A stretch of DNA of 64,000 bases from the IMG/VR virus record IMGVR_UViG_3300048687_000113, positions 45,244 through 109,243 of that record, one strand, 5' to 3'. Both the position numbers and the translations under genes were made by a program. Position 1 is the stretch's first letter; every line of letters starts with the position of its first letter. Shown piece after piece: positions 36,729-49,325 of the stretch. Under the pieces are notes generated by a model, which worked only from the letters and a program-made list of their open reading frames with translations, did no database searches and was not told the origin of the DNA. Source of the DNA: a virus.

Positions 36729-39629
36729 GTGGCCACCCCACCCCCGCCGCCCAATCCGCCCCCCGCCCCGACGAACCAACTCGGCAACCAGATCGACGCC
36801 TTGACCAGGGCGTTCACCAGTTTCACCAACCGGTTCGCGAGTTCGGCCGGCCTCGGCACGCTGAGCATGGGGGCCTATGGCCCCATGGGCGGACAGACCC
36901 GCCAGGATCACCAGCTCGGCAATCTCCAGCAGCAGTACCTCCAGACGAACCAGGCGCACATCGTCGCCCGCCAGCGCATGGAGGACGACGTCCAGCAGCA
37001 GCAGATCCGCTGGGCACAGCAGCGGCGCACGCAACTGGGCATCATCAACAATCCGAGGTCCACGCTCGCCCAGGAGACCGAGGCCCGCCAGCGCCTCGGA
37101 GAGGGCTCGCAGCTCAACCGGATTCGCACGGACGCCATCGACCGCGACTGGCAACTGCGGGAGAACAACTTCTCCGGGTCGATGGTCCGCATGAACTCCG
37201 ACATGGACCGGCTGCGCCAGCAGTCCGCCCAGACGACCACCATGAACCGGCTCGCGTTCGCCGGCCAGGTCACCGGCTCCGTCGTCGGGGCCGCGAGGAG
37301 CTACTACAGCGGCGACATCGAAGAACAGCTCGGCCAGTTCGAGCGGCGCCTGTCACTCCAGCGTCCCTCGTGGAAGGGCACCTCCGGCGAGCGAGCGCGC
37401 AGCCTCGGCTACGAGATGAAGCGCAACGGCTCGCTGCTCTGGGCCACCTCGAACGAGGACGCCATCGGCGGGCAGACGGACATCCTCAACCAGAACCCCT
37501 ACGACCAGTACACGCGTCAGACCCGCCGGGCCACCGGAGCCGCCTACGTCACCCCCGGCCTGGGCGTTCAGGGCGGCGCGCAGATGCAGCAGGAACTCGG
37601 CACCGGTCAAGCCTTCTACGCGTCCCAAATGTTCGGCCTGGCGCCGACGCGGTTCGGCGGCGGTGAGCAGAATTCCCCGGCCGCGATGGCGCTGTCGCTC
37701 GCGCAGAGGGTGAATGGCGGTGACTTCAAGAACCTGACTGGCTCCGAGCTGCATGCCCAGCTCGCCCAGGGCGGCTCGCTGTCCATGTCGATGGCCAACT
37801 GGGGCAAGGCTGCCGGGGTTTCCGGCCAGTCGCTCGAAGCCATGCGCAACCAGACCGAGCTTCTGCGCGACTTGGTCAACCCGGAGAAGAAGGGCCTGAA
37901 GGGGGTTTCGGAGAAGCGTGCTCTGAAGCTGATCGAAAACGCGGGCCGGCACGACGACACCGGCGAAGAGTCCCGCGAGGAGATTCAGAAGTACTCCGAC
38001 AGCGTCGGCAAGAGCTACCAGGACTCCCAGCGCTTCCTCGCCGGCACCAGCCGCGAGGGGCATCTGCCCGCCAGCGCCAGCTTCCTCGACGCCGCGCGGG
38101 CCAGCGCCGACACCCTCGCCGACATCAAGACGATTCTGCAAAAGGCCCTCGAACCGATGGCCGACGCGATCGGCTCCGTGGCCGGCAGCTCCAAGGGAGG
38201 CGGGTTCTGGGGGTCGTTGGGGTCCGGCCTGAAGTCCGGGTGGAACTGGGGCGACAACCTCGTCTTCGGCGACGCCGGCGAGGGGACCGAACAGGACTCC
38301 CTCGCCAAGAAGGCATGGCGGGGCATCAGCGGGATCTTCGGCGGTGATTCCGGTACGCCGGAGTCCAAGCAGGGCAGCTCGGGGAAGAAGAAGTCGGACT
38401 CGGCCGGCGTCGCGGGCGGCGGCGTCAGCAGCGCCATCGGATTCGCCCGCGCGCAGCTCGGCGACCGCTACGTGCTGGGCGCCACCGGCCCCAACGCCTG
38501 GGACTGCTCAAGCCTCATGCAGGCCGCCTACAAGAAGGCCGGCGTCAACCTGCCGCGAGTCACCTACGACCAGATCAAAAAGGGCGTCGAAGTCCCGATG
38601 GACGAGATCAAGCCTGGCGATCTCGTGTTCTACAAAGACCTCTCCCACGTCGGGATGTACACCGGAAGCGGCAAAGTACTCGAAGCCGCGAATCCCGGGC
38701 GAGGCGTCGTCGAAGGCCCGATGTACTCAAAGTTCAAGAGGGCCCGGCGCGTTCTGGCCGGCGGCATGGAGGCCAAGGCCAGCCTTTCCGGAGAGAACGA
38801 AGATCCGACCTCTTCGCAGTCCGGAGGCGGCGGACTCAAGATATCGGGCGCCTACGGGTCCGTAGAAGAGGTCGACGCGCTTGCCGCAGCATTGTCGGGC
38901 GGCGGCGGTGACCAGGCCGTCAGCCGCACCCCGAGTGCCTCGCAGAACGAAGAGGCCGAGGACGAGGGGAGCAGCGACGCCGGCAAGGATGCCCCGCACA
39001 ACGTGCAGAAGAACGTCGCACTCGGCAAGAAGATGGCCGCCTCCTACGGCTGGACGGGCAGTAACTGGACCGCGCTCTACAAGCTGTGGATGGGCGAGTC
39101 CGGGTGGCGGCACTGGGCCGACAACCCCAACTCCGACGCGTACGGCATCCCGCAGGCGATGTCGAACATCCATAAGGAGACCGCGACTGCCGCCTGGCGC
39201 AACTCCCCCGAGAAGCAGATCGCTTGGGGTCTGAAATACATCAAGGGCCGCTACGGCAGCCCCTCCCGGGCGTGGTCGTTCTGGAACTCCAAGAGTCCCC
39301 ACTGGTATGCCGACGGCGCATGGGAAGTGCCGGGACAGTCCGGTGAAGGCATCGACGCGAAATTGCACGGCGGCGAAATGGTGCTGGAGCGCAATGCCGC
39401 TCACACCGTCCGCCAGGCGCTCCTCAACCAGGGACTGACACCGTCACCGAACCAGGGCTCTGGCGCCTCCGGCGGCTCCACGGGGTCGGTCACGCTCCAG
39501 TTCGGCGCCGGCTCCGTCGTCGTGCAGATGCCGGCCGCCACCGCCGAGGGCGCGAAGTCGGCCGCCAGCTCCTTCGTCAGCTACGTCGCCGCCGACGACC
39601 GCATCAAGTCCCTGATGGGGGGCTGGTAG
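36729..39629 (+). CDS. Tape measure protein with NlpC/P60 and SLT-like domains
   Basis: A 966-aa protein from GTG at 36729. Helical, Gln-rich N-terminal half. An NlpC/P60 peptidase domain spans about residues 565-680, with Cys593 (NAWDCSS) and His640 (SHVGMY). A lytic transglycosylase-like domain spans about residues 760-870, with catalytic-type Glu790 (WMGESGWRHWADNP) and AYGIPQAM. The C-terminus (GIDAKLHGGEMVLERNAAHTV) is typical of tape measures. It fixes tail length and probably opens peptidoglycan when ejected. Confidence 0.92.
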   Translation: MATPPPPPNPPPAPTNQLGNQIDALTRAFTSFTNRFASSAGLGTLSMGAYGPMGGQTRQDHQLGNLQQQYLQTNQAHIVARQRMEDDVQQQQIRWAQQRRTQLGIINNPRSTLAQETEARQRLGEGSQLNRIRTDAIDRDWQLRENNFSGSMVRMNSDMDRLRQQSAQTTTMNRLAFAGQVTGSVVGAARSYYSGDIEEQLGQFERRLSLQRPSWKGTSGERARSLGYEMKRNGSLLWATSNEDAIGGQTDILNQNPYDQYTRQTRRATGAAYVTPGLGVQGGAQMQQELGTGQAFYASQMFGLAPTRFGGGEQNSPAAMALSLAQRVNGGDFKNLTGSELHAQLAQGGSLSMSMANWGKAAGVSGQSLEAMRNQTELLRDLVNPEKKGLKGVSEKRALKLIENAGRHDDTGEESREEIQKYSDSVGKSYQDSQRFLAGTSREGHLPASASFLDAARASADTLADIKTILQKALEPMADAIGSVAGSSKGGGFWGSLGSGLKSGWNWGDNLVFGDAGEGTEQDSLAKKAWRGISGIFGGDSGTPESKQGSSGKKKSDSAGVAGGGVSSAIGFARAQLGDRYVLGATGPNAWDCSSLMQAAYKKAGVNLPRVTYDQIKKGVEVPMDEIKPGDLVFYKDLSHVGMYTGSGKVLEAANPGRGVVEGPMYSKFKRARRVLAGGMEAKASLSGENEDPTSSQSGGGGLKISGAYGSVEEVDALAAALSGGGGDQAVSRTPSASQNEEAEDEGSSDAGKDAPHNVQKNVALGKKMAASYGWTGSNWTALYKLWMGESGWRHWADNPNSDAYGIPQAMSNIHKETATAAWRNSPEKQIAWGLKYIKGRYGSPSRAWSFWNSKSPHWYADGAWEVPGQSGEGIDAKLHGGEMVLERNAAHTVRQALLNQGLTPSPNQGSGASGGSTGSVTLQFGAGSVVVQMPAATAEGAKSAASSFVSYVAADDRIKSLMGGW

Positions 39630-39712: not shown

Positions 39713-40435
39713 ATGGCCGAGAAGAAGTCGGACGGTCCGGTCAATCTGCCAGCCAAGGGGATCTGGGAGAACACGTTCGACCGCCGAATCCAGAACATCC
39801 CTTCTTACCTTCCCGGCGAGCCGGGGACCAGCTTCGGGCTCCAGCGGGGCTACATGGTCTCCGCGTTCCCGAAGGACAGCAAGGCCAAGAAAAACCGGTT
39901 CTACATGCTGAATTTCCTGTACAACCCGTCGCAGGTCAGCGTGAACCACAGTACCGACGCAGCGAATCAGGTCATGCCGGCGTACACGCGCTCCGACTTG
40001 GACAACGGGATGCCGTTGGTAGCGGCGGGCGGCTCGCTGTCCTTCGCGCTGCTTTTCGACCGCACCTACGAGATGTCGGACCCCACCAAGTTCGACACGA
40101 TCGAGGGCACATACGGGGTGATGGCCGATGTGCACGTGCTCTACAACCTCCTCGGCATCACCGCGACGCAGAAGGTCAAGGAAACCGGCAGTGAGGGCGA
40201 CAACACCTACGACGGCAACGTGCTCGGCATTATGCAGATGAGCCCGCTGTGGTGTCGCTTCGGGCAGGCCCGCCACTCTTTCAAGGACAAGCTGCCGGCG
40301 ATCTCCAGAATGGAGTACTTCGGGTACGTCAACAACATCGGGATTACCTATAGCCATTTCACGCAGCGTATGACGCCTGTGCGGTGCGCCGTCGACATCA
40401 GCATGACGCTCATGTCGTCCTACGGATGGGTGTGA
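39713..40435 (+). CDS. CIS-tube-like baseplate protein
   Basis: A 240-aa protein; ATG at 39713. The middle RFYMLNFLYNPSQVSVNHS, followed by GGSLSFALLFDRTYEM, fits the tube-initiation (CIS_tube) domain of contractile injection systems, usually encoded with a LysM partner as here. The C-terminus (ITYSHFTQRMTPVRCAVDI) is also typical. Likely sits at the tube-baseplate junction. Confidence 0.75.
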   Translation: MAEKKSDGPVNLPAKGIWENTFDRRIQNIPSYLPGEPGTSFGLQRGYMVSAFPKDSKAKKNRFYMLNFLYNPSQVSVNHSTDAANQVMPAYTRSDLDNGMPLVAAGGSLSFALLFDRTYEMSDPTKFDTIEGTYGVMADVHVLYNLLGITATQKVKETGSEGDNTYDGNVLGIMQMSPLWCRFGQARHSFKDKLPAISRMEYFGYVNNIGITYSHFTQRMTPVRCAVDISMTLMSSYGWV

Positions 40436-40444
40436 GGAGAGGCA

Positions 40445-40729
40445 ATGGCCATTTCCCGGACGTCGCGATATCAGCGCAACGCGACGGCACTCGTCGCCGA
40501 CCGCAAAGGGCAGCTCCAGCTCGCCGTGATGCAGCGCTCGCCCACCGACCAGTCGCTGCGTGTGTCGGACTACCGGTGGCGCAGCGGCGAGCGTGTCGAC
40601 TCCGTCGCCAGCGAGTACTACGGCAGCGAGACGAGCTGGTGGATGTACGCCGAGGCGAACCCGCAGGTGCTCGACTGGACGAATCCGCCGGCCGGCCTTC
40701 AGATCATGGTGCCCCGTGGCGTGGCGTAA
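40445..40729 (+). CDS. LysM-like baseplate protein
   Basis: A 94-aa protein; ATG at 40445 with GAGGAG upstream. The second half is LysM-like: YRWRSGERVDSVASEYYG, then WWMYAEANPQVLDW and a final GLQIMVPRG. In contractile systems such modules (gp53-like) follow the tube-initiation protein. It overlaps the next gene by 14 bases. Confidence 0.8.
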   Translation: MAISRTSRYQRNATALVADRKGQLQLAVMQRSPTDQSLRVSDYRWRSGERVDSVASEYYGSETSWWMYAEANPQVLDWTNPPAGLQIMVPRGVA

Positions 40730-41915
40730 CACGTACAAGCCCCATCTGACGGCCTCGCAGCCCGCGTTGGAGAGCGGCGCGTGGCTGTCGAGCTTCGAGC
40801 TGTATCAGGCCGAGCAGGCGCACCAGGTCGCCGAGCTGACGGTGATGCACACCTACAACCCCGCGCTGCCCTCCCAGCAGTGGCGGACCCCGGCCGGGTC
40901 GGTGTGGGCGGAGAACACGCCGGTTCATCTGAAGTTCGGGTGGTGGGCGGACGACAGCGCCGACTGGTACGGGTACGTGGCCTCCTCCCGGGTGCTCGCC
41001 TCGGAGAGCGATCCCCGTTATGGGCACGCGGTGCAGATACCCGTGGTCTACACGCTCACCGGCACCAGCATGCTGACGCAGACCCGCCGCAACCGGACCT
41101 GGCGCGACACCTCGGCGTCCGCCATTGCGAGGACAGTGGCCTCCGAGTACAACCTTCAGCCGCGAGTCGACGGCTCCAGCGTGGTCTTCGCGCAGCAGAT
41201 GCAGTCCATGAGCGACTGGCAGTTCCTGTGCGACATCTCCGACCAGATCGGCTACCGCGTCTACGTGGACGGCACCGTGATGTGGTTCGTGGACCGCGAG
41301 ACGGTCATGCCGGCCTCCGACGGGAGCGTGCCTACGTTCCGGATGACTAAGGCGCCCGGGGCCATCGACACCTTGCGCGAGTTCTCGGCCGTCCTGGGCG
41401 ACACGGACCCCGCAGGAGGCGTCCGGGCGCGGTACCAGGCAGTGGCCTACAACCGCACCTCCAGCGTCCTCACACCGGCCACGTACTCCCAGAGCCGGAC
41501 CACTTTGCACGGGCAGCAGGTCGCGGCCCTCCTGGACCGGCAGTACGGCGACCGGCCGGCCGCGTCCTACAACCAGGCGAACCGGCTGCTGGCCGCCGAG
41601 TCGGACTGGCTGTGGGTCGAGGCCCGCGCGGAATCCAACGGGGACCCGCGCCTGAGGCCGGGCACACTCGTGGACCTCCAGGGCAACGCGGTCGGCGAGA
41701 GCAATCTGGGCCTGTGGATGGTGCGTTCCGCCGTCCACAAGATCAACATCAACCTGGTGTACCCGCAGAAGACGACGTACACCTCCACCCTCGTGCTCGG
41801 CCGCAACGACGCCCGCAAGTTGGACCTTCGGGTGCAGCAGCCGCCCGTGCATCCCGCGCCGACCGTCCTCGTCAACGGCCGCTGGCGGGCCGCGTACACG
41901 GGAGGGCTGACATGA
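40716..41915 (+). CDS. Baseplate hub protein, gpD/VgrG N-terminal-like
   Basis: A 399-aa protein from GTG at 40716. Residues 1-130 form a beta domain (WYGYVASSRVLASES). Later SASAIARTVASEYNLQP and MSDWQFLCDISDQIGYRVYVDG are the hallmark of phage late control gpD, T4 gp27 and VgrG hub domains. The C-terminus carries LRPGTLVDLQGNAVGE and a WMVRSAVHKI strand. It forms the central hub to which the spike binds. Confidence 0.85.
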   Translation: MAWRNTYKPHLTASQPALESGAWLSSFELYQAEQAHQVAELTVMHTYNPALPSQQWRTPAGSVWAENTPVHLKFGWWADDSADWYGYVASSRVLASESDPRYGHAVQIPVVYTLTGTSMLTQTRRNRTWRDTSASAIARTVASEYNLQPRVDGSSVVFAQQMQSMSDWQFLCDISDQIGYRVYVDGTVMWFVDRETVMPASDGSVPTFRMTKAPGAIDTLREFSAVLGDTDPAGGVRARYQAVAYNRTSSVLTPATYSQSRTTLHGQQVAALLDRQYGDRPAASYNQANRLLAAESDWLWVEARAESNGDPRLRPGTLVDLQGNAVGESNLGLWMVRSAVHKININLVYPQKTTYTSTLVLGRNDARKLDLRVQQPPVHPAPTVLVNGRWRAAYTGGLT

Positions 41916-42883
41916 CGGCTCTGTACGGGACCTACAGCGCCATCGTGGTCTCCGCCCAGGACCCGCAGCATCGCGGCCGGGCGCAACTGCGCATCCCCCA
42001 GATCATGGGGACGGCGGTGAGCGGCTGGGCAGTGCCGGTCACCCTCGGCGCGGTCCTGCCCGGCGACCAGGTGTACGTGATGTTCGACGGCGGCGACCGC
42101 TCGGTGCCGCTGTTTTGGCCTCAGCCGCGCGGCGGCGCACAGGGCTGGGTTCCACTGTCGCTGTCGGCCGGCTGGGCTCCTGGCATCAACGGGACGCCGT
42201 CGGCCCGCCTCGGCCAGGACGGCATGATCGAGCTGGCAGGGTCGATCACCACCGACACCCTCAGCGTCGGCGTCTCCACGAAGTTCTCGGCACTGCCCGG
42301 CGGCCTCGGCCGGCCGGTGCACCGGGTTATCCAGCCGGTCGCCACCGACTACCGCACCGCCTTCCGCTCCACGGTCGCGTTCGCCGAGTACCGCATCTCG
42401 CATTCGGTGACCTCCACGAGCTACGGCCCCGATGCCAACGGGCCCGTCGCCACGTTCGTCGCCCCCGGCAGCGGCGCCGCCGCCATCGTCTTCGGCGCAC
42501 ACGTACAGAACACGGTCAGCACAGGGCGTGCCGTAATGAGCCTCCAGGTCTCGGGAACCACCGGCGTGGTCGCCCCGGCCGACGACAACCACGCGGCGGA
42601 AGGCCAGAGCGCCAACAACGCCACCGTCGCCGGCTCCTACTTCCTGACCGGGCTCACCCCCGGCTCGACGTACACCGTCACCGCGATGTACCGCTCCGAC
42701 GGCACCAACAACTCGGCCACCTTCGACAACAAATGGATCACCGTGACGCCCACCGTCATGGACAACTCGCCGATGGCCCGCATCGCCGTCGAGACCAGCG
42801 GAGAGCTGCGCGCGCTCTTCGCCGCCTCGCACTATCCGCCGTACGCGGCCTCGCTGGACGGCGTGCGCGTGCGCGCCGTGTAA
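41912..42883 (+). CDS. Tail spike/hub protein with gp5-type OB domain
   Basis: A 323-aa protein; ATG at 41912 (ATGA overlap). The N-terminal 90 residues match the Phage_base_V/gp5 OB fold (YSAIVVSAQDPQHRGRAQLRIP; PGDQVYVMFDGGDRSVPLFW). The rest is beta-rich with an FN3-like module (LTGLTPGSTYTVTAMYRSD) and a C-terminal jelly-roll-like segment. It probably forms the cell-puncturing spike or its base. Confidence 0.8.
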   Translation: MTALYGTYSAIVVSAQDPQHRGRAQLRIPQIMGTAVSGWAVPVTLGAVLPGDQVYVMFDGGDRSVPLFWPQPRGGAQGWVPLSLSAGWAPGINGTPSARLGQDGMIELAGSITTDTLSVGVSTKFSALPGGLGRPVHRVIQPVATDYRTAFRSTVAFAEYRISHSVTSTSYGPDANGPVATFVAPGSGAAAIVFGAHVQNTVSTGRAVMSLQVSGTTGVVAPADDNHAAEGQSANNATVAGSYFLTGLTPGSTYTVTAMYRSDGTNNSATFDNKWITVTPTVMDNSPMARIAVETSGELRALFAASHYPPYAASLDGVRVRAV

Positions 42884-42896
42884 AGGAGAGAAGGCA

Positions 42897-43988
42897 GTGG
42901 CCTACCCGAACTTCCGCCACCTGGCAGCCGACAAGATCCTCGGCATCGACTACGACATCAAGAACCGCTACGGGTCGGGCACCTACCTGCTGCATGCCGC
43001 GATCCACGGCGGCGGCATCGAGCCGCCCACCTCCCAGCTCGCGGCCTACTGCGCCGGCGACGGCGCCTGGTACTCCTTCGAGGCCCTCAACGACCTCACC
43101 GCCCAGACCGTCAAACTGCCGGCCGTAGCCTTCGACGAGCCGTTCTGCGTCGTGAACGCCGGCAACTCCAGCCGGACCGTGGTGTGGCACGGCGTGGACG
43201 ACCAGCGCGAGGCCGAGCAGGTCACGTACATCAGCGGCGCCGACTCCGTGCTGGCCTCGCTGATCGTCCAGGAACTCGTCGCCGCCGGCTTCCAGACCGA
43301 CCGCGCCCCGGTCACGTTCGAGGGCGAGACCCCGCAGAACATCTGCAACCGCAACAAGGCTCGGGCAGGTGTCCAGCTCGACCTCTCCTACACCCTGCGC
43401 AAGTCGTTCTACGCGAGCGGGGACCTCTCCACGGCCGCCCTCTCCCAGCCCGACAACCGGCTGCCGGCCTTCTTCGCCTACGGCGACGCCATCCGCCGGG
43501 CCTGCGCCCAAGTCCCCCTGGCGAGCGACACCGACGACGTCCCGCCGGTCATCACCCAGCCGCGCACGCCCGCCAGCCAGGACGTCAGCACCGCCATGCG
43601 CACCCCCTTCGCCATCGACCACTCCGGCGGTGTCTCGGCCACCACCGACGAGCGCGAGCAGCTCGTGGACCGGGTGCACGCCCTGGTGGGCACGCTGCCC
43701 GGTGAGCGCGTCATGCGCGCCACCTACGGTGTGCCGACCTCGGCCTCCCTGTTCGCGATCAACCCGGAGATCGCCAATGATCAGTTGCAGCGGGCCGTCA
43801 TCGACGCCGTCGCGCAGTTCGAGCCGTCCGCCGTGGTCTCCGCCATCGTCGCCGACGTGAACGAGAACCTGGGCTCGGTCAACGTCAACGTCCAGGTGAG
43901 CCGCGCCGACGTGCCCGGCGCCGAGCGCGACAACACGCGGTCGGTCGGCGTCCTGGTGGGCGGCACCGTCATTTCCACTCCGGAGTAA
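42897..43988 (+). CDS. Poly-gamma-glutamate hydrolase / gp25 baseplate wedge fusion
   Basis: A 363-aa protein from GTG at 42897 with AAAGGAG upstream. Residues 1-185 match the phage poly-gamma-glutamate hydrolase family (PghP type): AIHGGGIEP with H37 and E42, AFDEPF, a second HG at H98 (VVWHGVDD), VTYISG, QNICNRNKARAGVQLDL and LRKSFY. Residues about 236-355 match gp25-type wedge proteins (LVDRVHALVGTLPGERVMR; TYGVPTSASLF; IVADVNENLGSVNVNVQVS). The enzyme is a zinc amidohydrolase cleaving gamma-glutamyl bonds of surface capsules; here it would be built into the baseplate. Confidence 0.88.
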   Translation: MAYPNFRHLAADKILGIDYDIKNRYGSGTYLLHAAIHGGGIEPPTSQLAAYCAGDGAWYSFEALNDLTAQTVKLPAVAFDEPFCVVNAGNSSRTVVWHGVDDQREAEQVTYISGADSVLASLIVQELVAAGFQTDRAPVTFEGETPQNICNRNKARAGVQLDLSYTLRKSFYASGDLSTAALSQPDNRLPAFFAYGDAIRRACAQVPLASDTDDVPPVITQPRTPASQDVSTAMRTPFAIDHSGGVSATTDEREQLVDRVHALVGTLPGERVMRATYGVPTSASLFAINPEIANDQLQRAVIDAVAQFEPSAVVSAIVADVNENLGSVNVNVQVSRADVPGAERDNTRSVGVLVGGTVISTPE

Positions 43989-44062: not shown

Positions 44063-44087
44063 AGGAAACCGAGAGGAAGTGTGTGCC

Positions 44088-45611
44088 GTGGCAGTCGACA
44101 GCGGGTCCGTTGCGCAGATCGACTACACCTCCCGCGATTTCACGGGCTATCGCGACTCGCTGCTCCAGTACGCAACGCAGATCCTGCCGGAATGGACGAG
44201 CCGCTCACCCGCCGATTTCGGCGTGGTGATGGTGGAACTTTTCTCCTACGTCGGCGACATCATCAGCTTCTATCAGGACAGGATCGCCGACGAATCCTTC
44301 CTCGCCACCGCCACCCAGCGCTCCAGCGTGGTGGCCATCTCCCAGCAGCTCGGATACCAGCCGCACCCCGCGATCCCCGCGACCGGACAGGTGGCCTTCT
44401 CGCCCGCTCCCGGCCTGGTCTCCCCGGTCACGCTCGACGCCGGCACCCAGGTGATCACGGAATACCTACCGAGCCTGGACCGGCCCATCGTCTACGAGCT
44501 GACCTCTCCCGTCGTCGTGCCGGCCTACACCACTCCCGTGCCGCAGGTCGTCGGTCTGGTCGCCGAGGGGGCCACCCAGGGCGACCGCAGTCTGGTGCTG
44601 TACCCCTCGACGTCGGGTGAGGCCGGCTCCACGGTCCGCGTCGAGGACATCGGCACCTCGGACGGCACCAAGTCGCAGACCTTCGCCCTGGCCCAGTCCC
44701 AGGCGCTGCTCGACACGGTGCGCATCTTCCTCGATGACGGGGTGGGCGGCACCGAGTGGACACGAGTCTCCGACTTCCTCCTGGTGCGCGACAGCGACCT
44801 CGTTTTCACCGCCGAGACCGACGACCAGGGCGTCACTCACGTGACGTTCGGCGACGGGACCAACGGAGCGCTGCCGGCCACCGGCATCAAGCTCACGGCG
44901 GCATACCGGACCGGGGGCGGCTCGTACGGCAACATCCCGCAGGGTTCGATCATCGATCTCGCCGATGCGCTGCCCGGCGTCGTGGTGGCCGGCTCCGCCC
45001 CGATGGCCGGCGGCGCGGACGAGGAGCCGACCGACCAGGTCCGGGAGAACGCCCCGCGCTTGTTCCGCACGCAGGGCCGGGCGGTCTCCGCCCAGGACTA
45101 CGCGGACCTGGCCCTGGCCGTGCCCGGCATCGCCGACGCCCGTGCCGTGGTCCGCTCGTCCAGCGCCGTGACCATCTATGTCGTCGGCCCGAACAACATC
45201 CTCCCGAGCGAAGGCCAGAGAGACTCCGTCGCCCAGTACGTGCAGGACCGCGCCCTGTCGGGGGTCGTGGTCAACGTGGTCAACGGCTCGCTGATCCCGG
45301 TGAACATCGGCTCCAGCACCGCGCCCGTGCTCCTGTCGGTACTGCCGCGCTATCGCCGCGACACGGTGAAGCTCGCGGTGCAGCAGGCCGTTCAGAAGGT
45401 CTTCACGCCTCCCGAGACCACGCTTTCCTCCCGTATCTCGATTTCGCACCTCTACAAGGCCATTCAGCAGGTCGCGGGCGTCGACTGGGCCGTCATTCAG
45501 CTCATGGCCCGCTCCGATCTCCCGCAGTCCGGCACCGCCGATGTCGTCTGCCGCGACAACGAAATCCCGATCGTCGGCAACGTCGTGATCACCGCCAGCG
45601 GCGGAGTATAG
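44088..45611 (+). CDS. Baseplate J-like wedge protein
   Basis: A 507-aa protein. GTG at 44088 is nine bases after GAGGAA; an in-frame GTG at 44079 is too close to it. The sequence fits gp47/J-type wedge proteins: YTSRDFTGYRDSLLQYA, FGVVMVELFSYVGDIISFYQDRIADESFLATA, GTAPxx beta region, FGDGTNGALPATG, DQVRENAPRLFRTQGRAVSAQDYADLA in pieces, and a C-terminal DIAI-like region. It forms the wedge ring that triggers contraction. Confidence 0.92.
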   Translation: MAVDSGSVAQIDYTSRDFTGYRDSLLQYATQILPEWTSRSPADFGVVMVELFSYVGDIISFYQDRIADESFLATATQRSSVVAISQQLGYQPHPAIPATGQVAFSPAPGLVSPVTLDAGTQVITEYLPSLDRPIVYELTSPVVVPAYTTPVPQVVGLVAEGATQGDRSLVLYPSTSGEAGSTVRVEDIGTSDGTKSQTFALAQSQALLDTVRIFLDDGVGGTEWTRVSDFLLVRDSDLVFTAETDDQGVTHVTFGDGTNGALPATGIKLTAAYRTGGGSYGNIPQGSIIDLADALPGVVVAGSAPMAGGADEEPTDQVRENAPRLFRTQGRAVSAQDYADLALAVPGIADARAVVRSSSAVTIYVVGPNNILPSEGQRDSVAQYVQDRALSGVVVNVVNGSLIPVNIGSSTAPVLLSVLPRYRRDTVKLAVQQAVQKVFTPPETTLSSRISISHLYKAIQQVAGVDWAVIQLMARSDLPQSGTADVVCRDNEIPIVGNVVITASGGV

Positions 45612-46409: not shown

Positions 46410-49325
46410 ATGGGCGTCTACGAACTCGACATTTACGCGAAGACCCTCTACGGGGCGCCACTCTTCTTGGCGTTCGATTCCAACGTCACGGTGGAGCAGC
46501 GTGGTTACGGCGCTCTGGAGGTCGCATGGGACACCCCGGTCCAGGCTGCCGCGTCGCAGATTCTCGCCGGGGTGAAGCCCTGGACCAAGCTCCGCCTGGT
46601 GCGCAACTCCTACGGAATTCCCGACGCCGAGGATGACGGTTGGGTCATCCTGGAGACTTCTGCCGGATCGGATGCCAACACTTTCCTGGACGACACCACG
46701 GTTCCCGGACGGGTCTACTACTACGGGGTCTTCGTCTCGACCGCGCCGGACACGTGGAACTCGACGGTCACCTATTACCCGGGGGACCTCGTCTCCTACA
46801 ACTCCAGCATTTACACGGCGATCCAGGTCGGCCCGAGCGGCGCCCCCGACCTCAGTCCGACGTACTGGAGCCTGTCGCCCGTCACCGAGCAGTGGATGCG
46901 TTGCGGCGGCGGAGTCGGGCTCGCTGTGAGGGACTTCGGCAACAGCCTCCTTCTGTACGACCACATTCCTCGGCCCTACAAGGTGGAGACGGTCGAGTCG
47001 ACCGCGTCGACCATTCCCGTCAACGACCAACTCAAGCGTTTCTGCACGCTGTTCGGCTATTTCTTCGACGTCATGAAGACCGAGAACGACCAACTCCTGC
47101 GCCTGAACGATGTGCAGCGGTGTACGGACCGCCAAATCGGCCTGATAGCGCAGCAGATGGGGATTGCGGACCGCCTTCCGTCACTGCCGGAGCTTCGCCG
47201 CACCTATGTCCGGGACGCGGCCCTCATTCAGCGCGACCGGGGCAGTACCTCCTCAACGGCCGATCTGGTGAAGGCAGTTACCGGCTGGGACGCAGACGTA
47301 TCCATTGGCTACAACGAACTGCACGACCTGGACGAAGCGTCCTTCTCCAGCCCCACCTATCCCACCTGGGCGCGCGACACCGTCTACTCCACGACGGCCG
47401 GCAGCCAGCTCTATTCGGACATCGTCCAGTACAACGGCGACCTGTACGCCGCGATCGGGACGCCTCGCCGCGAGTCGGCCTACCTCTCCTACACCGCGTC
47501 CAACCCCACACGGACCGGCAGTGGCGTCATCGTGCGCGACCCCGACCGTGTCGCCGATCCCTACCCCGGCTACGTCCATCTCGACAACGCCGCGATCGGG
47601 GACACTCTCACCTTCATGTTCACCGCTGCCAGCGGCGGTGCCGGCGCGTACAACGTGCTCCTGGTGGCCGTCGCCGATCCGGCCGGCGGCATCATCACGG
47701 CGAAGGTCAACGGGGTCTCCGCGACCATGGCGCCGCTGGACCTGTACAGCCCGGCGCGGCAGCTCATCCCCATCCAACTCGTGGGGAACTTCAACCTGAC
47801 CGCGACCGGCAACACCCTGACCCTCACCGTGACCGGGAAGAACGCGCTCTCGACCGGGTACGGGATCACCGCCAGCCATTGGATGCTCCAGGGCAGTGGG
47901 ATCAACCTGAACGTCCCCCCGACAGGCCACGCGCAGTCCGCCACTTATTGGCAGGCCCTGACGCCCAACACGCTCCAGGACACTCTCACTGAGCAGAATC
48001 CGCTCACCGGCGGATACGGGAGCTGGAACCTGAGCCTGCCCACCGGGGTCGTCAATCCCGATGTCTCGTCCGGAGTGAACCCGGACTGGTGGATCTCTCC
48101 GCAGGGGGCCCGTTCCGGGACCAGCAGCCCCGGCACCGGCAACTCCCTCAACTACACAGCGAAGACCACCTCAGGCACCCGCGAGGTCTACCTGGCCGGC
48201 CTGATCCGAGCCGGTGCATGGGACTCCACGAACACGTACGCCCCCGGCCAGGCAGTGACCTGGAACCCCTTGGGCTGGAGCAAGCCACCCGTCTACGTGG
48301 CCAAGGCCCAGTCCGTGGGCAAGCAGCCGGACCTCAACCCCTCGAAGTGGGAGTTCACCTCCTACACACCGAACACGTCGCCCGAGCCGAGCCGGATCAT
48401 CACCGACTGCGTCCACACGCCGAAGGTCGTCTCCTGGTCCTCGACCCGGACATACGCCAAGGGAGACCGGGTGGCCTGGCGCGGCCACCTGTACGAGGCC
48501 GCGCTTCCCTCACTCGGGATCTTTCCCAGCGGCTACAACACGGACAGCCGGTGGTGGCGGTGGTGCGGGCTGAATTCGCAGCGCTACACCTTCACGCTCT
48601 ACCACAACCGGAGCGCCACGGCGGCAGGAGCCGACGTCCGCCTCTTCGCGAACTTCTACGACTCCAACGGCGGTTTCGGCGGCAGCGGCTTCCTCACCTC
48701 GGACGCCCAACTCCTCTACGACCGCTTCGAGTTGCCGGACCAGACCTACCCCAGTGGCACCGGCAGCCCGCCGGCCGGCTACGTGAAACCCGCCCTCGGA
48801 CAGATGGGTGTCCCCATCCCGTGGAACGTCTCGCGGGGGAACTGGACCAATGCGCGCGGTGTCGTGCGCCCGACGAGCTGGAGTTCTGCGGCCACGCTGG
48901 AGCGCAAGGTGGGGCGCGCCCTGTGGTTCAACCGGAGCTGGGTCTACGACCCCGTCCCCGCCGGACAGACGGGCGAGCAGGCGCACGTGACGTTCATGTC
49001 CGCCCCCGACGACAGCGCCGGCGTCCTGGAGCACGGCATCGTCTTCCGCTACGGCGCGAACGCGTACTGGCTCGCCTCTCGCGACCGGCTGACCTACACC
49101 ACGTTCACCGTGGTCTCCGGAGCCGTCACCGACGTCACGACCACGGTCCTCGCCACCTGGACACCGGTGAAGTCCGGCGAGCGCTTCCGCGTCGCCAACC
49201 GCACCGGCGACATGGTCGTGACAGCCCGTATCCCCGGCCAGCCGTGGCGCACGCTCGCGGCCGTCAGCGACACACGCAACAACACCGCCGTCGGCTGGGG
49301 TCTTCTGGAAAGGGTCCGCCCATGA
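46410..49325 (+). CDS. Large tail protein, P2 gpI-like plus carbohydrate-binding modules
   Basis: A 971-aa protein; ATG at 46410. Residues about 195-310 resemble P2-type tail protein I (FCTLFGYFFDVMKTENDQL; RRTYVRDAALIQRDRGSTS; DLVKAVTGWD). At least three short CBM5/12-like modules occur: YYPGDLVSYNSSIYTA, YAPGQAVTWNPLGW and YAKGDRVAWRGHLYEA. The C-terminus has a LamG-like region. It links baseplate wedges to host-surface recognition. It overlaps the next gene by 4 bases. Confidence 0.8.
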   Translation: MGVYELDIYAKTLYGAPLFLAFDSNVTVEQRGYGALEVAWDTPVQAAASQILAGVKPWTKLRLVRNSYGIPDAEDDGWVILETSAGSDANTFLDDTTVPGRVYYYGVFVSTAPDTWNSTVTYYPGDLVSYNSSIYTAIQVGPSGAPDLSPTYWSLSPVTEQWMRCGGGVGLAVRDFGNSLLLYDHIPRPYKVETVESTASTIPVNDQLKRFCTLFGYFFDVMKTENDQLLRLNDVQRCTDRQIGLIAQQMGIADRLPSLPELRRTYVRDAALIQRDRGSTSSTADLVKAVTGWDADVSIGYNELHDLDEASFSSPTYPTWARDTVYSTTAGSQLYSDIVQYNGDLYAAIGTPRRESAYLSYTASNPTRTGSGVIVRDPDRVADPYPGYVHLDNAAIGDTLTFMFTAASGGAGAYNVLLVAVADPAGGIITAKVNGVSATMAPLDLYSPARQLIPIQLVGNFNLTATGNTLTLTVTGKNALSTGYGITASHWMLQGSGINLNVPPTGHAQSATYWQALTPNTLQDTLTEQNPLTGGYGSWNLSLPTGVVNPDVSSGVNPDWWISPQGARSGTSSPGTGNSLNYTAKTTSGTREVYLAGLIRAGAWDSTNTYAPGQAVTWNPLGWSKPPVYVAKAQSVGKQPDLNPSKWEFTSYTPNTSPEPSRIITDCVHTPKVVSWSSTRTYAKGDRVAWRGHLYEAALPSLGIFPSGYNTDSRWWRWCGLNSQRYTFTLYHNRSATAAGADVRLFANFYDSNGGFGGSGFLTSDAQLLYDRFELPDQTYPSGTGSPPAGYVKPALGQMGVPIPWNVSRGNWTNARGVVRPTSWSSAATLERKVGRALWFNRSWVYDPVPAGQTGEQAHVTFMSAPDDSAGVLEHGIVFRYGANAYWLASRDRLTYTTFTVVSGAVTDVTTTVLATWTPVKSGERFRVANRTGDMVVTARIPGQPWRTLAAVSDTRNNTAVGWGLLERVRP

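Follow-up and report, generated by a model that had tools for sequence, protein, structure and literature searches.

Among the tail genes of a temperate phage, one reading frame raises the question of why a baseplate wedge protein should begin with a domain of the poly-gamma-glutamate (PGA) hydrolase family, and whether that domain still cuts. The gene occupies positions 42897-43988 (+ strand) of a stretch of 64,000 nucleotides (hereafter the window; positions 45,244 to 109,243 of IMG/VR virus record IMGVR_UViG_3300048687_000113). It is a single open reading frame with a GTG start and an AGGAG-type site directly upstream, and encodes 363 amino acids. Its features, together with those of the neighbouring genes, are given in window coordinates.

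39713..40435, + strand: contractile injection system tube or LysM-type protein, upstream in the conserved order (sub-threshold Pfam match)
40560..41915, + strand: baseplate hub protein (Phage_GPD; Pfam); the listed ORF start is probably too early
41612..42883, + strand: baseplate spike (Phage_base_V OB domain; Pfam); true start probably near 41.9 kb
42897..43988, + strand: fused gene, PghP-fold (PF05908) domain, disordered linker and gp25 baseplate wedge domain (ORF, Pfam, model)
42903..43448, + strand: PF05908 poly-gamma-glutamate hydrolase domain, residues 3-184, the fold reaching to about residue 205 (Pfam, VIA Z)
43005..43022, + strand: zinc-ligand motif HGGGIE, with H37 and E42 (PghP His40 and Glu45) kept (alignment; ligand assignment from PMC6506827)
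43113..43124, + strand: K73-L74-P75-A76 replacing the PghP/PghL substrate residues His-x-Thr-Ser, the pocket being predicted lost (alignment)
43188..43190, + strand: H98, equivalent to PghP His103 and the third zinc ligand; the window and L305 keep it, the five other clade members have Arg (alignment)
43203..43211, + strand: three-residue insertion Q103-R104-E105 right after the zinc-ligand strand, in 7/7 clade members; QTT in L018 (alignment)
43380..43382, + strand: D162 at the position of the catalytic glutamate (PghP Glu165, carboxypeptidase A Glu270; alignment)
43512..43595, + strand: linker, residues 206-233, the fastest-evolving part (model confidence below 50 for residues 217-236)
43596..43985, + strand: complete gp25-like baseplate wedge domain, residues 234-363 (Pfam, fold match, alignment with stand-alone gp25)
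44079..45611, + strand: baseplate J/gp6-like wedge protein (Pfam, PHROGs/J comparison)

The virus record that holds the window (109,243 bases) carries integrase, terminase, portal, capsid, sheath, gp19-type tube, hub, spike and J genes, and the window is, by its gene content, part of a temperate contractile-tailed phage. The order tape measure, LysM, hub, spike, hydrolase-gp25, J and fibre is common to the fused relatives checked. At the tape-measure position (36729-39629) lies a 966-aa tail protein with an NlpC/P60 domain, and 46410-49325 encodes a candidate adhesin of 971 residues, which has weak similarity to tail fibres and two CBM_5_12 (chitin-binding-type) stretches. A DNA search against named phages gave no match. 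The J protein of the window is 38-41% identical to those of the Streptomyces phages LuckySocke, Alone3, pSt2308, GiJojo and BRock; the four of these that were inspected (BRock, LuckySocke, GiJojo and pSt2308) have a separate 137-aa gp25 gene at the same operon position.

Both parts of the protein belong to well-defined families. Residues 3-184 match Gamma_PGA_hydro (PF05908) with an E value of 8.6e-39 and 133.4 bits, against a Pfam cut-off of 22, and residues 252-332 match GPW_gp25 (PF04965; E 5e-10, 39.5 bits against a cut-off of 27.2, profile positions 3-87 of 96); PHROGs and PDB sequence comparisons agree with both calls. From about residue 232 the gp25 part aligns end to end with the gp25 that Streptomyces phages encode as a stand-alone protein of 137 residues. 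An AlphaFold model of the fused protein, built from 42 sequences, has a mean pLDDT of 85, rising to about 95 over the first 205 residues and falling below 50 for most of the linker. In this predicted model the N-terminal domain superposes on PghP (3a9l) with a VIA Z of 32.0 and an rmsd of 1.8 over 204 residues, with comparable scores for the PghP-fold structures 21dc (Z 32.9) and 5onj (Z 30.1), while the gp25 domain matches T4 gp25 (5iv5_BD) with Z 11.2 over 113 residues; the comparison also places the hydrolase-domain fold near amidases and N-formylglutamate amidohydrolase. The preliminary description had read here a PghP-type hydrolase joined to a complete gp25, and had proposed the comparison with both structures; the Pfam matches, the two fold matches (Z 32.0 and 11.2), the alignment with stand-alone gp25 and the recurrence of the fusion bear this reading out. 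The motifs that it named are likewise found N-terminal to the gp25 domain (H37-G-G-G-I-E42, H98 and N148-I-C-N151). It overlooked that the window has other residues in place of the catalytic glutamate and the substrate pocket.

The joining of a PghP-type hydrolase domain to a complete gp25 is a real fusion. Full-length fused proteins of 16 distinct sequences, that of the window among them, occur in viral contigs (L002-L005 and L018-L024) and in four cellular genomes, all Streptomycetaceae: L184 in Streptomyces diastatochromogenes ATCC 21481, L229 in Streptomyces sp. CBMA29, L264 in genome G099, and L305, the nearest relative of the window, in G658. An initial genome scan with four sequences gave no match, and an extra sample of 391 genomes of the order added no new fused host. 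The possibility of an assembly artefact, raised at the outset together with the prospect that relatives would carry the two domains as separate genes, is thus ruled out by the 16 distinct proteins, four of them in Streptomycetaceae genomes, although gp25 is indeed separate in the sister phages. Conserved gene order around the fused relatives checked further argues that the join is real and old. Translation of gp25 on its own from an internal start was considered and is unsupported, as the internal ATG gives way to ATC in L003, GTC in L018 and CTT in L019. In G658 the fused gene occurs twice without any difference, as L305 and L309 (C1 4554897 and 4664568), and the 12,330 bases compared are the same at both sites; the spacing of 109,671 bases is close to the length of the virus record of the window, and suggests a tandem prophage or an assembly duplication.

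The branching patterns of the hydrolase and J trees provide clues to the history of the fusion. On the hydrolase tree, whose fused rows include neither the frameshifted L041 nor L305, a later find, 15 fused sequences fall in one clade of 17 with a support of 84, and only L010 and L235 are nested among them, beside the intact group. Both of these, L010 (3989-4660, on a plasmid) and L235 (near 8001), encode a hydrolase without gp25 that keeps a linker remnant (TWPQxR...), and they therefore look like former fusions that have shed gp25. On the J tree, three phages with gp25 alone (L098, L099 and L101) branch among the fused ones, together with L018; the hydrolase was thus probably lost in these three, and the fused phages as a single clade are rejected. 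A single gain of the fusion with later loss or losses is the simplest history on these trees, while two or three independent gains are possible. In L041 (5842-7039) the fused gene is split by a frameshift within the hydrolase, either a sequencing error or real.

Whether the hydrolase domain is likely to cut was addressed by comparison with characterised enzymes. The zinc ligands of PghP are His40, Glu45 and His103, and the enzyme also needs His78, Thr80 and Glu165; alanine mutants of His78, Thr80, His103 and Glu165 lose activity (PMC6506827). With PghL as the reference, an alignment covered 14 fused and 141 unfused domains, and two further fused ones (L264 and L305) were read by eye. The unfused set, which includes L041, actually a frameshifted copy of the fusion, is nearly invariant: His40 and Glu45 are each present in 141/141, His103 in 140/141, His78 in 136/141 and Glu165 in 139/140, the sole exception at the last position being L259. 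The fused proteins L019, L020-L024 and L184 keep all six residues, and look fully active as far as alignment can tell. In the window, all three zinc ligands are kept (H37, E42 and H98), as is Arg168 (Arg171 of PghL), but Glu165 is replaced by Asp162, His78 by Lys73, Thr80 by Pro75 and Ser81 by Ala76. The same trend extends through its clade (n = 7: window, L305, L002-L005 and L264). Aspartate stands at the Glu165 position in all seven and none has an equivalent of His78 (Lys, Ala or Ser instead) or Thr80 (Pro or Ser). The His103 ligand is Arg in five of them (L002-L005 and L264), leaving L305 as the only other member with all three ligands. The stretch D102-Q-R-E105, which contains the three-residue insertion, is invariant in the clade.

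Outside this clade, the glutamate position holds Gly in L018 and Ser in L229, both fused. Glu165 is thus lost in 9/16 fused against 1/140 unfused domains (Fisher p 9e-10), though the sequences share ancestry, so that the number of events weighs more than this value; the hydrolase tree pairs L019 (Glu) with L229 (Ser) as sisters, which implies at least two losses of the residue. Judged from these alignments and the predicted model, the window-clade domain has kept its fold but neither the catalytic glutamate nor the pocket that recognises PGA, and most members have lost one zinc ligand as well. The enzyme claim of the preliminary description accordingly survives for the zinc ligands H37, E42 and H98, but not for a working PGA hydrolase, the equivalents of Glu165, His78 and Thr80 being replaced.

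The altered domain nevertheless appears, from substitution counts, to stay under purifying selection. For the hydrolase part, the window clade has a pairwise pN/pS of 0.42, which falls to 0.33 when the window is set aside, and the intact fusions L020-L024 and L184 have one of 0.31; for the gp25 part the respective values are 0.33 and 0.23. These are simple Nei-Gojobori counts with no branch model, and L305 is left out. Since it is constrained nearly as much as the intact domain, the altered one probably still does something.

A baseplate-borne enzyme of this kind, as first proposed, would imply a PGA coat on the host, and a survey of host genomes gave a divided answer. Of 199 Streptomyces genomes, 54 have CapC, a subunit of the PGA synthase. 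So does G001, which harbours the intact fusion L184; the neighbours of CapC there are a Mur-ligase-type gene and an NlpC/P60 gene. In contrast, no CapC was detected in G002, G099 and G658, whose fusions have lost the glutamate, an absence that counts for little where a genome may be incomplete. The only window-clade hosts found, G099 and G658, are among these, and the implied coat is therefore unsupported for the window clade. An association of CapC in hosts with intact active sites in their fusions (1/1 against 0/3 hosts) was considered and set aside as too few to count. Two chromosomal PghP-type proteins of Streptomycetaceae (L307 in G737 and L308 in G710) start with a sequence resembling a signal peptide and keep the catalytic motifs intact; they are possible secreted PGA hydrolases.

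To account for these patterns, we put forward that in an ancestor of Streptomyces contractile phages an active PGA hydrolase became joined to the N-terminus of gp25. Such a fusion would place several copies of the enzyme in each baseplate, as the preliminary description had also expected: gp25-like chains are present six times in solved baseplates (PDB entries), and by analogy the flexible linker would tether the fused domain at each wedge. The intact fusions would then act as a PGA depolymerase at the baseplate. In the window clade, cutting was most likely lost, and the domain would sit static at the baseplate rim, where it may bind a polymer of the host surface or shape the baseplate. We consider it rather probable that an ancestral baseplate-tethered PGA hydrolase has become a non-cutting, probably polymer-binding or structural, baseplate domain; its presence in the virion, its loss of catalysis and its binding or structural role are what we infer for the window clade. 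Several points weigh against this reading: all three zinc ligands persist in the window and in L305, its nearest relative; the aspartate could still serve weakly as a base; another acid, for example in the conserved D102-Q-R-E105, might compensate; and the domain is dispensable to the tail, given L098, L099 and L101 with gp25 alone inside the fused phages of the J tree. More tentatively, the change from depolymerase to non-cutting receptor or structural domain may have left living intermediates, perhaps after PGA became absent from the host surface. With similar reserve, these may be ordered from the intact L019-L024 and L184, through those without the acid (L018, L229 and the window) and those also without a zinc ligand (L002-L005 and L264), to L098, L099 and L101, where the domain is gone.

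Other explanations share part of this evidence. The domain might still be a zinc hydrolase, with Asp162 or a loop acid as base, now directed at another gamma-glutamyl, amide or wall-linked Streptomyces polymer. A different polymer would fit with the disappearance of the PGA pocket and with the three-residue loop gained beside the zinc, and the three ligands kept in the window and L305, the invariance of D102-Q-R-E105, the persisting purifying selection and a fold near amidases and N-formylglutamate amidohydrolase point the same way. Yet Arg replaces the third ligand in five of the seven clade members, all seven have replaced the catalytic glutamate, and this residue has gone to D, G and S in different branches, as relaxed catalysis predicts, so that we find a changed substrate unlikely. 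That the domain is a decaying passenger without present function, tolerated since gp25 folds independently, would agree with the loss of the whole domain in L098, L099 and L101, with the plasmid or chromosomal L010 and L235, which lost gp25 and retain a linker remnant, and with the frameshift in L041; it is made quite improbable by the fact that all seven window-clade copies are in frame, with pN/pS of about 0.3-0.4, close to the intact fusions, and by a predicted fold that is complete and of high confidence.

An active enzyme stripping a PGA coat from the host, the original proposal, draws on the domain family and its zinc ligands, on the intact catalytic sites of the fused L019-L024 and L184 and on CapC in 54/199 Streptomyces genomes and in G001. 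For the window it appears very improbable, given that the residues replaced are those whose change to alanine inactivates PghP (PMC6506827) and that the window-clade hosts G099 and G658 are without CapC.

Comparison with known systems places the window protein between two familiar ones. With PghP and PghL of Bacillus phages (PF05908, MEROPS M86) it shares sequence family, whole fold, zinc ligands H37/E42/H98 and Arg168, and it differs in the change of Glu to Asp, the missing His/Thr/Ser pocket, three extra residues by the zinc and fusion to a baseplate protein. With T4 gp25 and the stand-alone gp25 of Streptomyces phages (PF04965) it shares a full-length domain, the T4 gp25 fold and a place between spike and J, but it has about 230 extra N-terminal residues, the PghP-type domain and linker. 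The intact fusions L019-L024 and L184 have the same two-domain order and operon place as the window, and differ in keeping the Glu165, His78 and Thr80 equivalents; the gp25 of L020-L024 and L184 is much less like that of the window. The initial view of PghP as normally separate and soluble holds for phage phiNIT1, whose enzyme is described as soluble, released at lysis and outside the virion (PMC6966330), but PghP domains are also fused in other phage proteins. Staphylococcus phage V1SC04 (L014:3022-4881) joins an N-terminal PghP-type domain with intact catalytic residues to a glycerophosphodiester phosphodiesterase, and Streptomyces phage-plasmid pRLB1-9.1 (L012:3989-8173) encodes a protein of 1394 residues that begins with an intact PghP-type domain; in neither is the partner gp25. 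The latter gene lies two genes after the baseplate J gene, and its PghP-type domain has close relatives in several viral contigs. In the literature searched, we found no combination of the enzyme with Streptomyces phages, and gp25 and a PGA hydrolase were mentioned together in a single paper, on phage SPP1.

Depolymerases carried on the virion are usually tailspikes or fibres. An enzyme within a wedge core protein would instead sit in several copies at the sheath-initiating ring. To call such fused proteins poly-gamma-glutamate hydrolases may be a mistake, and PGA-type coats are worth attention in Streptomyces. Above all, a series from intact through catalytically altered to deleted, in one gene and at one operon place, would make the change from an enzyme to a binding or structural module directly testable.
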